Source: Verrucomicrobiota bacterium (GTDB lineage: Bacteria; Verrucomicrobiota; Verrucomicrobiia; Limisphaerales; J093). From it: 64,000 nucleotides of DNA. This document shows positions 1,331 to 5,344 of this stretch, piece after piece; positions within the stretch are counted from its first letter, which is position 1; each line of letters begins with the position of its first letter. Location: NCBI GenBank assembly GCA_022710935.1, contig JAKLFY010000019.1, positions 1 to 64,000 of the forward strand. Reading direction: 5' to 3'. Below the pieces are notes generated by a model. That model made no database searches, was not told the DNA's origin, and was given only the letters and a program-made list of their open reading frames with translations. The position numbers were made by a program, and so were the translations under genes.

Positions 1331-2008
1331 ATGACGACTGAACCCATCAAATTGGAGGATGCGGTCGAGTTCGCCGAGAACCCGGAGCCCCGGTGTCCGT
1401 GCGTGTTGCTCCTCGACACCTCGGGGTCGATGCGGGGCGAGCCGATTGCGGCCTTGAGCGCGGGCTTGAAAGCCTTCAAAGACGACCTGATCAAAGATCC
1501 GCTTGCCTCGCGGCGGGTCGAGTTGGCCGTGGTCACATTCGACAGCGACGTCAAGGTGGTGCAGGACTTCGTCACGGTGGATCAATTTGTGCCGCCAGAA
1601 CTCGCCGCGCAGGGCCAGACGTTCATGGGCAGCGCCATCCACAAGGCGCTCGATATGATCCAGGCGCGCAAGGCGAAATATCGCGCCAACGGCGTGGCCT
1701 ATTACCGTCCCTGGGTCTTCATGATCACCGACGGCGAACCCCAGGGCGAACCGGACAGCGTCGTCCAGCAGGCCTCGCAGCGCCTCAAGAGCGATGAGGC
1801 CAATAAGCGGGTCGCCTTCTTCGCGGTCGGCGTCGAGAACGCGAACATGAGCAAACTGGCCGAGTTGGTTGTGCGGGCGCCGGTCAAGCTCATCGGCCTC
1901 AATTTCGTCGAGATGTTCGTCTGGCTTTCGCGCAGCATGGAGAAGGTCGCTCAATCGCAGACAGACGAACAGGTGGCGCTGCCGCCCCCCGGCTGGGGGA
2001 CGGTGTGA
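1331..2008 (+). CDS. vWA domain protein, TerY-like (TerY-P triad)
   Basis: This cytoplasmic von Willebrand factor A domain protein (225 aa) has an intact metal-ion-dependent adhesion site: DTSGS at 29-33, Thr97 in QGQTFMGSA and Asp134 in MITDGEPQG. The whole protein is one vWA domain with no signal peptide or membrane segment, as in TerY. The PP2C gene at 2401 and the kinase gene at 3330 follow on the same strand. vWA, PP2C and kinase in this order is the TerY-P triad described from comparative genomics of Ter-type stress systems, in which the vWA protein is presumed to be a phosphorylated scaffold. I start at the ATG; a TTG two codons earlier is possible. No clear ribosome binding site is visible. 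The family call is firm; the triad's role is inferred. Confidence 0.9.
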   Translation: MTTEPIKLEDAVEFAENPEPRCPCVLLLDTSGSMRGEPIAALSAGLKAFKDDLIKDPLASRRVELAVVTFDSDVKVVQDFVTVDQFVPPELAAQGQTFMGSAIHKALDMIQARKAKYRANGVAYYRPWVFMITDGEPQGEPDSVVQQASQRLKSDEANKRVAFFAVGVENANMSKLAELVVRAPVKLIGLNFVEMFVWLSRSMEKVAQSQTDEQVALPPPGWGTV

Positions 2009-2400
2009 GGGGGAAGTGCAAAGTGCGGCCAAGTGTGAGGCGTGATGCGCACGGGGGCCATGAACCGGAAACGTCCAACGTCCAACTCTCAACTCTCAAC
2101 TAGCCTGCATTTCTCACCACTTTTTGCCACCGCGAAGCCGGAGTTCACAAGAGAAGTCAGCATGCAGGCTAGGAAAGCAAAACCGCGCCCGAGTGGAGAG
2201 CGGGAATCGGGCAACAGAGTGTCGCCGCACTCGCGAGGTTTCGCAAACGCTCCGAACCTCGTTTTTCCCTGTGCGGACGCGGTTTTGCCACAGCCCGGAT
2301 TTCTTTGTCATCTTCCCGGTCGTAAGAAATCCGGGCTAGATGGTTCATGGGATGAGGATGCGGATGTTGCGGACGGCGGATCGTGACTGGTTGAAGAGGA
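2009..2400. other. Intergenic region rich in nested inverted repeats
   Basis: This 392-bp gap between the vWA and PP2C genes has no credible gene. It begins with a heptamer-phased repeat (2039-2100). Then come an 11-bp inverted repeat CTAGCCTGCAT / ATGCAGGCTAG (2100-2110 and 2162-2172), an 11-bp pair GCAAAACCGCG / CGCGGTTTTGC around 2177-2288, and a 14-bp hairpin AGCCCGGATTTCTT / AAGAAATCCGGGCT around 2295-2338. The arrangement suggests remnants of a mobile or structured element. It also separates two genes that are presumably co-regulated. Confidence 0.6.
2039..2100 (-). repeat. Heptamer-phased dispersed repeat, copy 1
   Basis: Read on the minus strand this holds two GTTGAGA units and two GTTGGAC units, followed by a tail GTTTCCGGTTCATGG and then GTGCGCATCA. 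The same layout, unit plus tail, is found at 38572-38637 on the plus strand with four GTTGAGA units. Seven-base periodicity plus a conserved non-repetitive tail argues for one dispersed family and not chance simple sequence. Confidence 0.7.
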
Positions 2401-3192
2401 ATGAAAGTCGATCTCGAGCGACCCGGCCATGTTGTGTCCTGGCGCGTGGTCGCCGCGTCGGTGCGCGGGACCAGCCACATCAAGTCCGATCTGCCCTGCC
2501 AGGATGCGTTGCGCTGGCAGACAGCGCGCGGCGGGTGGCTGCTTGCGGCCCTGGCGGACGGCGCGGGGTCTGCCGCTCTGGCAGAAGTCGGGGCAGGCAT
2601 TGCCGCCGACCGGGGCATCGAGGCATTGAAGGCGCAGGTCAAATCCAAGTCGCACGCGGCTGCCGACGAAGAATGGCGTGCCGGCCTGGTGGCGGCGCTC
2701 ACAAGCGCGCGCGCGGCCGTTCTCGCCGCTGCCCAGGAACGCAAGGTCGAGGCGCGTGAACTGGCCAGCACCCTCACACTGCTGGCGGTTTCGCCCGGGA
2801 TCGCGGTCGCGGCGCAGATTGGGGATGGCGCCGCGCTGGCTTCCGCGCCCTCCGAGGCCTTGGCGTGCCTCACCAGACCCATGGTGGCCGAGTACCTGAA
2901 CGAGACCACGTTCCTCATATCCGACACCGCGCTCGAATCGGCGCAGACCGTTGTGCGGCGTGGGGCCTGGCGGCGTGCGGGTCTGCTGTGCGATGGTCTG
3001 CAACTGCTCGCGTTGCGCCTGCCGGAGGGGACGCCGCACGCGCGTTTCTTCGATCCGCTCTTTGGTTTTGTCGATCGGGCGGCGAATCTGACGGCTGCCA
3101 GCGGGGAGTTGAGCGCGTTTCTGCAATCGCAGCGCATCACCGAGCGCACGGATGACGATCTCAGCCTGCTGCTGGCGGCTTATGGCGATTAG
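2401..3192 (+). CDS. PP2C-type protein phosphatase (TerY-P triad)
   Basis: This is a metal-dependent Ser/Thr phosphatase of the PP2C superfamily (263 aa), predicted to remove phosphates added by the kinase encoded downstream. Metal-binding acidic motifs occur in family order: CQDA (Asp35), LADGAGS (Asp53-Gly54), QIGDGAAL (Gly141-Asp142-Gly143) and TDDDLSLLL near 250-258. The N-terminal QDAL and ADGAGS forms are typical of the compact PP2C members paired with TerY-like vWA proteins. The start is supported by a purine-rich GAAGAGGA just upstream. No membrane segment is present, so it should act in the cytoplasm. A 71-bp inverted-repeat element starts at the last base of the stop codon, separating this gene from the kinase. 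Confidence 0.88.
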   Translation: MKVDLERPGHVVSWRVVAASVRGTSHIKSDLPCQDALRWQTARGGWLLAALADGAGSAALAEVGAGIAADRGIEALKAQVKSKSHAAADEEWRAGLVAALTSARAAVLAAAQERKVEARELASTLTLLAVSPGIAVAAQIGDGAALASAPSEALACLTRPMVAEYLNETTFLISDTALESAQTVVRRGAWRRAGLLCDGLQLLALRLPEGTPHARFFDPLFGFVDRAANLTAASGELSAFLQSQRITERTDDDLSLLLAAYGD

Positions 3193-3262
3193 AATCCTTG
3201 ACCCGTTCAACGCAGCTCAGAAACTTGACTTGTCTACAACACATTTCATCGGTCAAGGATTC
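3192..3262. repeat. 71-bp inverted-repeat element, copy 1
   Basis: The termini are a perfect 12-bp inverted repeat (GAATCCTTGACC / GGTCAAGGATTC). The same 71-bp sequence recurs at 37120-37190 with 63 of 71 identical positions and identical termini, and a partial copy lies at 58359-58399. The size and termini fit a small palindromic, non-autonomous element. It sits between the PP2C and kinase genes. Confidence 0.85.
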
Positions 3263-3329
3263 CAGCCCGGTTGCGGTTCCTCGCGAAGCGTGTGAAATAA
3301 CCGGGCGAGCCGCTGCCTGATTCCGACCC

Positions 3330-4805
3330 GTGCGATTTCAGCGCGCATCCAACGGCGAGATCGTGACCCTGGCGGAGAATCACCGCCTGGGAGCGGGAGG
3401 CGAGGCGCGCATTTACGCGGTGCCGGGAGAACCGCGGCTGGTCGCGAAGATCTGGCACAAGCCAACGCCCGAGCGCAGCCGCAAGCTGCGCGTGATGCTG
3501 TGCAATCCGCCCATGGATCCCATGGCGCCGCAGCAGCACGCTTCGATTGCCTGGCCGATCGATGTGTTGAGCGCGCCTGGCCGGTCGCAGGCGCTGGCGG
3601 GGTTCATCATGCCGCGTGTCGAGAACATGCGGCCCGTGGGGGAGTTCAGCAGTCCGAAAGTCCGCCGGGCCCGTTGTCCGCTGTTCAACTACGCATACCT
3701 GTATCGGACGGCGCGCAACCTGGCCACGGCGGTGCGGGCCCTGCACGAGCGCGGCTACGTGATCGGCGATCTCAACGAATCGAACGTCCTGGTGGCTGAG
3801 ACGGCCCTGGTGACCATTGTCGACACCGACTCGTTCCAGGTTTGGGACGCGGAGGCGGGTGTGATGTACCGCTGCCGGGTGGGCAAGCCCGAGTACACCC
3901 CGCCGGAACTGCAGGGCAAGAGTTTTGCCCAGGTCGACCGCGAGGCCGCCCATGATCGGTTCGGTTTGGGCGTTTTGATTTTCCAGTTGTTGATGGAGGG
4001 GACACACCCGTTCGCGGGCGTCTACCGCGGGCGGGGCGAACCGCCGTTGCTCGAACAGCGGATTGCGGCGGGCCACTTCCCGTACGCGCGCGAGGCGCAT
4101 CTGCCTTACGCGCCCAAACCCACCGCGCCGCCCTTCGACACGCTCGCGCCCGGTCTGCGCGACTTGTGTCTGCGGTGTTTCCAGGATGGCCATTTTCGCC
4201 CCAGCCTCCGGCCCGAACCCCAGAGCTGGCAGTACGTCATCGAGGAAGCGGAGTCGCACCTCGTCACGTGCCAGTGGAACTCCCAGCACGTCTTTGGCGA
4301 TCACCTCGAACAGTGTCCGTGGTGTGAACGGGCCAAACAGCTTGCCGGACGCGATCCGTTCCCCTCGATCGAGGGAGTGAAACGGGGAGAGCACCGCGCG
4401 CCGCCCCCGCGGGCCCGGGAGCGCGGCGCGACGCGCCGAGGCCAACGCCGCTCGCCGTCCTGGCCGGCGGGCATGCCGAATGTCCCCAAACCCCCGCCCA
4501 TCCCGCCTTCCGCGCCCCGCGCGCGAACATCGAGACGCCGTCCGCGTCCGCTGCTTGGCGACTGGAACGATTGGGCGTGGGTGGCCCTGACCTCGAGCGC
4601 TTTGGCCGCGGGCGCCGCGGCCTCGTTTCAATGGCAGGCCAACCCGCTGACATTCCTCTGCGGCATCTTCGCCCTCTTGACGGGCATTCTCGGTGAAGCC
4701 AAGGCCCGCAGCGCCGAACTGGATGGACGGGGCAAGTGGATCGCGCGCACTGGGCTGACGCTCGGCACAGTGGCGTTGGTCTGGTGCCTAAGGGCCACGG
4801 TGTGA
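3330..4805 (+). CDS. Membrane-anchored Ser/Thr kinase with zinc ribbon (TerY-P triad)
   Basis: This is a Hanks-type kinase-like protein (491 aa). Visible elements are a glycine-rich loop LGAGGEARIY (20-29), Lys40 in LVAKIW, a catalytic-loop equivalent VIGDLNESNVLV with Asp147 and Asn152, VDTDSFQ at 164-170 in place of DFG, and the TPPELQG segment at 190-196. Asp165 or Asp167 would bind metal. Residues 314-332 (C314, H320, H325, and the CPWC pair C329/C332) look like a zinc ribbon. A basic, Pro-rich linker follows, then three hydrophobic stretches between about 415 and 491, so the kinase is probably membrane bound with its catalytic domain in the cytoplasm. The DTDSFQ and GDLNxxN forms match kinases of TerY-P triads. 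GTG is the only sensible start. It closes the vWA-PP2C-kinase set. Confidence 0.88.
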   Translation: MRFQRASNGEIVTLAENHRLGAGGEARIYAVPGEPRLVAKIWHKPTPERSRKLRVMLCNPPMDPMAPQQHASIAWPIDVLSAPGRSQALAGFIMPRVENMRPVGEFSSPKVRRARCPLFNYAYLYRTARNLATAVRALHERGYVIGDLNESNVLVAETALVTIVDTDSFQVWDAEAGVMYRCRVGKPEYTPPELQGKSFAQVDREAAHDRFGLGVLIFQLLMEGTHPFAGVYRGRGEPPLLEQRIAAGHFPYAREAHLPYAPKPTAPPFDTLAPGLRDLCLRCFQDGHFRPSLRPEPQSWQYVIEEAESHLVTCQWNSQHVFGDHLEQCPWCERAKQLAGRDPFPSIEGVKRGEHRAPPPRARERGATRRGQRRSPSWPAGMPNVPKPPPIPPSAPRARTSRRRPRPLLGDWNDWAWVALTSSALAAGAAASFQWQANPLTFLCGIFALLTGILGEAKARSAELDGRGKWIARTGLTLGTVALVWCLRATV

Positions 4806-4867: not shown

Positions 4868-5344
4868 TCATCCGGGAGGTTCCAGATCGTGGAAATCGAC
4901 CTCGAGGTCGGTCGCCCCCACCCGCAGGATCGCCACGCTGCGGGGCGTGTCGAATCGCCGCTTGCCCGCGGAGCCCGGATTGAGGAACAGCGTGTCGCCA
5001 ATCCGCTCGCAGAACGGTTTGTGGGTGTGTCCGAAGACCACGACATCCGGTTGCACCCGGTCGATTTGACGCCGCAGGGGATCCGCCAGCCGGCGCGGCT
5101 CGACCACGTGATGCACGAGGAACCTGCGTCCGAACAGCTCGATCACCTCGGTCTCGCGGAACGAGAGGCCGGAGTCGACATTTCCGATCACCGCCGTCAC
5201 CGGGGCGATCGCTTCGAGTTCCATGATGATCCACGGCAAACCGATGTCTCCGCCGTGCAGGATGTGATCGACGCCGGCAAAGAGAGACTTGACCTGGGGA
5301 TCCAGGAAGTTGTGTGTGTCCGAGATGATGCCGAGCCGGGCCAT
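4868..5344 (-). CDS. Metallophosphoesterase, YfcE/MJ0936-type
   Basis: This is a small calcineurin-like phosphodiesterase (158 aa). It carries the full dimetal motif set in order: SDTH (8-11), GGDIG (about 31-35), GNVD (about 54-57), HH near 78 and GHTH near 105. Length and motif spacing match the YfcE/MJ0936 family, which cleaves phosphodiesters in vitro; the physiological substrate is generally unknown. The start ATG shares a base with the stop of the upstream membrane-protein gene (TAATG), so the two are likely translationally coupled. It has no signal peptide and should be cytoplasmic. Confidence 0.9.
   Translation of the reverse strand: MARLGIISDTHNFLDPQVKSLFAGVDHILHGGDIGLPWIIMELEAIAPVTAVIGNVDSGLSFRETEVIELFGRRFLVHHVVEPRRLADPLRRQIDRVQPDVVVFGHTHKPFCERIGDTLFLNPGSAGKRRFDTPRSVAILRVGATDLEVDFHDLEPPG

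Follow-up and report, generated by a model that had tools for sequence, protein, structure and literature searches.

Three consecutive genes at positions 1331-4805 on the forward strand of a Verrucomicrobiota bacterium contig (JAKLFY010000019.1, assembly GCA_022710935.1) probably constitute a distant chromosomal version of the Escherichia coli YegL–PphC–YegI triad, a branch of the broad TerY-P-like class; this judgement applies jointly to the identity of the triad and to the switch mechanism proposed below. The 64,000-nucleotide stretch that was analysed, hereafter the window, is the contig start within a 7.5-Mb genome. The triad consists of a vWA-domain protein of the YegL type (1331-2008, 225 aa; Pfam VWA E=3e-14), a PP2C-type Ser/Thr phosphatase of the PphC (YegK) type (2401-3192, 263 aa; PP2C_2 E=4e-42) and a Hanks-type Ser/Thr kinase of the YegI type with a GTG start (3330-4805, 491 aa; Pkinase E=2e-8), all three open reading frames (ORFs) being intact.

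The comparison with E. coli K-12 supports this assignment. The three proteins match, in the same order and on one strand, YegL (53% identity, E 6e-65), PphC (33%, 5e-34) and the kinase part of YegI (33%, 6e-49); by global alignment the identities were 53, 38 and 38%, respectively. In tblastn searches against plasmids, vWA relatives were 50-56% identical and several of them are annotated yegL beside pphC. The N-terminus of the window vWA protein is of the YegL type, 'EFAENPEPRCPCVLLLDTSGSM', as opposed to 'MRRLPVY..L.D.S.SM' in TerY, and a tree of 63 vWA rows groups the ter-type TerY proteins with starred support (99/96), leaving the window protein outside them among YegL-type rows. The kinase lies inside a starred Verrucomicrobiota clade (100/98) in a 42-row tree, and the nearest triad relatives among named records are Verrucomicrobiota metagenome-assembled genomes. 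Long branches disturb where the ter kinases fall in this second tree, and the deep split that parts them from the YegI kinases was not relied on. Fold searches were likewise discarded for subfamily placement, as Foldseek and VIA for the kinase and Foldseek for the vWA protein returned generic folds; a family not listed there is possible.

TerY-P systems are defined by a vWA protein, a PP2C and a kinase with a C-terminal zinc ribbon, versions with an OB-fold being stand-alone defence systems (PMC11090510). The window encodes this broad TerY-P-like combination, and it also has the features of the YegL–PphC–YegI branch: the order vWA-PP2C-kinase, a C-x5-H-x8-10-C-P-W-C ribbon right after the kinase domain and a predicted membrane anchor. 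The TerY-P triad announced by an earlier note on this DNA is therefore retained as a member of the broad class and not of the tellurite-type TerY branch, from which the N-terminus, the absence of a TerY_C domain and the starred tree split set it apart. Like the window kinase, E. coli YegI has a zinc ribbon (CX5HX8CPWC) after the kinase domain, as well as hydrophobic segments. The two proteins differ in that YegI, of 648 aa, carries a coiled-coil-like stretch and an HhH domain behind the membrane part, whereas the window kinase ends after three helices and has neither, a trait that varies across the family and does not define it; Pfam kinase motifs are recognisable in the window kinase, whereas YegI gives no Pfam kinase match.

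The kinase domain (aa 1-310, 3330-4259, forward strand) contains K40, GDLNESN and DTDSFQ, in agreement with the motifs first read from the sequence, and is supported by alignment, AlphaFold model and VIA-align, in which residues 1-310 aligned with RAF kinases, PknB and other kinases at Z scores of about 20. It is followed by the zinc ribbon CQWNSQHVFGDHLEQCPWC (aa 314-332, 4269-4325), spaced C314-x5-H320-x8-C329-x2-C332, then by a Pro/Arg-rich linker of low predicted local distance difference test (pLDDT) scores, taken as disordered (aa 361-412, 4410-4565), and by three helices predicted to lie in the membrane (aa 414-432, 439-460 and 467-490, 4569-4799) that weakly resemble DUF4190 (Pfam E=0.004, under the cut-off). 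An AlphaFold2 model (mean pLDDT 89.2), computed from 31 sequences of the window and the loci, has a protein-kinase fold, a structured segment at 311-340 enclosing the ribbon, and three C-terminal helices. In the 31-row alignment K40, D147, D165, D167, C314, H320, C329, W331 and C332 are invariant, which bears out the ribbon proposed by the earlier note; its three hydrophobic segments, and the topology check that it called for, are supported by the model together with hydropathy, of which Kyte-Doolittle hydropathy alone flags the middle helix and no other. Because an Arg-rich stretch precedes helix 1 and a charged loop separates helices 2 and 3, the tail would adopt an N-in, three-pass arrangement.

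A membrane-sited zinc-ribbon kinase may look unusual. The ribbon, however, lies near position 313 in all full-length kinase homologues examined, YegI included, most of them have at least one membrane segment behind it, and YegI has been reported at the inner membrane; such a kinase is thus normal for the YegI branch, and further precedents are found in PMC7159879 and PMC11090510. PMC13232886, which cites Rajagopalan et al. 2018 and 2020, describes YegI as a kinase bound to the membrane that autophosphorylates on Ser and is dephosphorylated by PphC. The title of the 2020 paper, as given there, places YegI at the inner membrane and describes it as without conserved motifs, and according to PMC13232886 no condition is known to induce YegI/PphC in E. 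coli. A second likeness, drawn from description and not from sequence, is to actinobacterial systems (PMC7159879) in which a kinase with either a zinc ribbon or transmembrane helices as its fusion partner is adjacent to a PP2C and a stand-alone vWA protein; these differ in being tied to GAP1-N2 GTPase systems. Downstream of the triad, up to 7.6 kb, no gene is of the McrB/CnuB-type GTPase or CnuH/CnuE (CoCoNuT-type) kind; upstream, the contig starts 1.3 kb from the triad.

The catalytic and metal-binding residues are preserved in the two other proteins as well, as the earlier note had read them. The metal ion-dependent adhesion site (MIDAS) of the vWA protein, D29-x-S31-x-S33...T97...D134, is unchanged across 11-row and 32-row alignments (AlphaFold2 model pLDDT 91.8), and the acidic residues D35, D53, D142, D198 and D252 of the PP2C are unchanged across 19 homologues. 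Comparison with the same-genus genome G001 gave ratios of nonsynonymous to synonymous substitution rates (dN/dS) of 0.05 for the vWA gene, 0.23 for the PP2C gene and 0.10 for the kinase gene, values of purifying selection which indicate that the triad genes are maintained.

The conserved adjacency that the earlier note had made a test of its reading was found: a GTDB scan yielded 80 loci in seven phyla (Verrucomicrobiota, Cyanobacteriota, Armatimonadota, Poribacteria, Chloroflexota, Planctomycetota and Pseudomonadota), most of which have vWA, PP2C and kinase genes in this order on one strand. Within the family of the window (14 genomes, its own included) the vWA gene was present in 10 and the kinase gene in 12; in a phylum-wide draw the distribution was patchy, with a close vWA in 17 of 289 genomes. 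The vWA protein is better conserved than its two partners in all comparisons (at locus L048, 84/53/72% for vWA, PP2C and kinase domain) except that of the near-identical same-genus pair. Several points nevertheless weigh against the proposed assignment and switch. In G003 (L043, L044) and G010 (L055, L056) the vWA gene is apart from the PP2C-kinase pair, on another contig and not near contig ends; in G004 no PP2C was detected upstream of the kinase or nearby; and a vWA match was absent from G007 and G013, both incomplete genomes, despite a PP2C-kinase pair. From the split or partial loci of G003, G010 and G004 it follows that strict operon coupling is not required. In addition, the usual catalytic-loop Lys is replaced in the window kinase (DLNESN), for which reason its activity is treated here as presumptive, and its membrane topology is a prediction. 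Separately, the PP2C and kinase genes of G010 look frameshifted.

With respect to mechanism, the kinase would be cytoplasmic and tethered by its C-terminal helices through a flexible linker, with the zinc ribbon right behind the catalytic domain. The active kinase would autophosphorylate on Ser/Thr and most likely phosphorylate the vWA protein or a target that this protein brings in; stripping of these phosphates by the PP2C would reset the switch. The vWA protein, by means of its Mg-binding MIDAS face, is probably an adaptor or substrate, and the complex may form and be released according to phosphorylation state. We infer the roles of the vWA protein and of zinc, that of the vWA protein because of its conservation and of an archaeal precedent: the kinase ArnC phosphorylates the vWA protein ArnB and the phosphatase PP2A reverses this, whereby ArnA/B complexes assemble and dissociate (PMC7472852). 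Among PDB sequences, the window vWA protein matched ArnAB (8s05, E=5e-4) and no other entry. A reversible switch acting on the vWA protein, as the earlier note had proposed, is a plausible hypothesis.

Behind the ribbon and the membrane segment the kinase tail differs among the relatives. Tails made of helices only occur in the window, L067, L130 and L138, and the window kinase is thus a minimal, helices-only membrane form; other loci carry TPR (L074), WD40 (L115, L122 and Trichormus L026), FGE-sulfatase (L070, L101) or coiled-coil and HhH segments (YegI and L141), the tails of L026 and L141 having been read from sequence. These differences suggest an exchangeable output or sensor module on a kinase-zinc-ribbon core. 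A further-reaching proposal is that all YegL–PphC–YegI triads are one widespread, modular, membrane-tethered switch that is also carried as cargo by phages or capsid-bearing satellites and acts as a general sensor of infection or envelope damage, the window triad being its minimal form; we regard this as rather unlikely. Its phage component comes from relatives of the triad. In the IMG/VR contig 3300045454_000139 (L147/L183; L183 2574-13780) the triad lies between terminase and portal genes, with a D5-type primase before and a head/protease gene after it; in contig 2898954250_000006 (L185 2128-12582) it lies beyond the terminase and major-head genes; and in L148 and L149 it adjoins integrases. 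The record that gave the best matches of the triad in the phage collection, MT836238.1 (L024, 'Bacteriophage sp.'), was discarded, as its M20 peptidase and NMO neighbours indicate that it is probably a bacterial contig.

TerY-P was reportedly described as an anti-phage defence system by Gao et al. 2020, and the window triad might similarly sense infection and mount a kinase-mediated response. For the relatives concerned, a defence-type reading draws chiefly on the triads carried as cargo in the phage-like contigs (L183/L147, L185, L149 and L148), and the window kinase domain also has weak matches to the PADLOC PD-T4-6, mad6 and MkoA kinases. However, in the TerY-P profile search that the earlier note had suggested, the PADLOC TerY model gave the window vWA protein E=0.005 and 14 bits, compared with 512 bits for L172. 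The defence triad L172/L173, from a genome of the same taxonomic class, is very different from that of the window: L173 (in G129) has the same vWA-PP2C-kinase order, but the window kinase and PP2C have no match there at E 1e-4, and defence TerY-P has an OB-fold tail (PMC11090510) where the window kinase has a zinc ribbon. None of the scanned downstream flank genes looks like a defence gene. Moreover, yegL-pphC matches were found in 5364 of 5426 complete E. coli genomes, i.e., as core and not accessory genes. This near-universality, together with the frequency of the triad in the family of the window, speaks for a function in housekeeping or stress rather than in accessory defence, and we consider the defence explanation unlikely.

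Another explanation is a general phosphoswitch for envelope or growth stress: the membrane helices themselves would act as sensor, and a cytosolic target would be recruited by the vWA protein. Consistent with this, the tether is kept while its sequence varies (39-50% identity in the family versus 63-72% for the kinase domain), the tails are swapped for TPR, WD40, FGE or HhH modules, and yegL-pphC is core in E. coli. However, there is no known phenotype, and when the ORFs near some 100 loci were clustered, most of what emerged was the triad itself, its antisense shadows and apparent cyanobacterial synteny, with no conserved neighbouring target gene. In this specific form the explanation appears decidedly unlikely.

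A canonical TerY-P triad, the kind that on tellurite plasmids acts together with Ter proteins as a switch in metal or xenobiotic stress, has an identical gene order, and the TerY-P locus of a ter plasmid from Klebsiella (L062) resembles the window further in the Cys pairs behind the kinase domain and in a weak likeness between the kinases (23%, E~1e-7). The ter locus examined comprises TerY1, TerD, TerY2, TerY3 with TerY_C, a 588-aa PP2C and the kinase. It differs from the window as follows: the window vWA protein is 26-29% identical to ter TerY versus 53% to YegL; TerY_C, found by Pfam in plasmid TerY3 (E=7e-52), is absent from it; the ter PP2C has an N-terminal extension of about 300 aa that the window PP2C lacks; ter-type TerY is a separate starred clade; and TerD neighbours the plasmid genes, whereas it was found in none of 58 genomes searched, the window's own and 57 relatives, two control genomes being positive. 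The latter result extends the remark of the earlier note that no Ter genes flank the triad. A canonical role is accordingly very improbable here. One genome of the same order, G049, has no TerD but does have a TerY-like triad (L174 2205-6144), whose PP2C is long and whose kinase gene is interrupted by an in-frame stop at about residue 252; this triad shares a DxDS-type motif with the window, a point in favour of the canonical explanation, and both branches are therefore present in the order.

The genes are consecutive and on one strand as first described, but they are spaced apart: the gaps are 392 nt between the vWA and PP2C genes and 137 nt between the PP2C and kinase genes, versus 14 and 49 nt in G001, and the extra DNA is mostly dispersed repeats. 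The first insertion (2027-2400), absent from the same-genus genome and hairpin-rich (z=-2.0), starts right behind a GTG that is probably the native start codon of the PP2C gene, and it replaces the first ~13 aa of the protein. It contains a modular, palindromic element (2100-2339) with 47 scored genome matches among 305 candidates, and some copies contain just the first and the last palindrome. Two further dispersed repeats, different from this element, occupy the second gap (3190-3306; about 3190-3262 and 3264-3306; 40 scored genome matches). That the repeats broke the operon and the triad is a decaying relic is the least probable of the explanations weighed, since, against the insertions in both gaps, the lost PP2C start and the PP2C being the fastest-evolving of the three (dN/dS 0.23), the three ORFs are intact, as are their active sites, dN/dS is far under 1 and the PP2C retains an in-frame ATG at 2401 behind an AAGAGGA stretch. 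A RAYT-like (Y1_Tnp) transposase gene lies near the repeats at 182-1246 on the reverse strand, and its mobilising them is a mere possibility. This gene and a YfcE-type metallophosphoesterase gene (4868-5344, reverse strand), both identified by Pfam, do flank the triad as noted earlier; their adjacency to it is confined to the window and the same-genus genome, and because of this restriction to one genus a functional link to the triad was discarded.

The triad, the zinc ribbon and the membrane anchor are not new, as they are described in PMC13232886, PMC11090510 and PMC7159879, and the window triad is an ordinary member of the YegL–PphC–YegI branch whose local peculiarities are a minimal tail and a repeat-split operon. 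Taken together, these results place the switch in at least seven phyla, its core of vWA, PP2C, kinase and zinc ribbon being fixed and its tail exchangeable, and they suggest that the zinc ribbon rather than the tail is the essential accessory part. The comparison also hands over concrete residues and deletions for E. coli, in which yegL–pphC is nearly universal.

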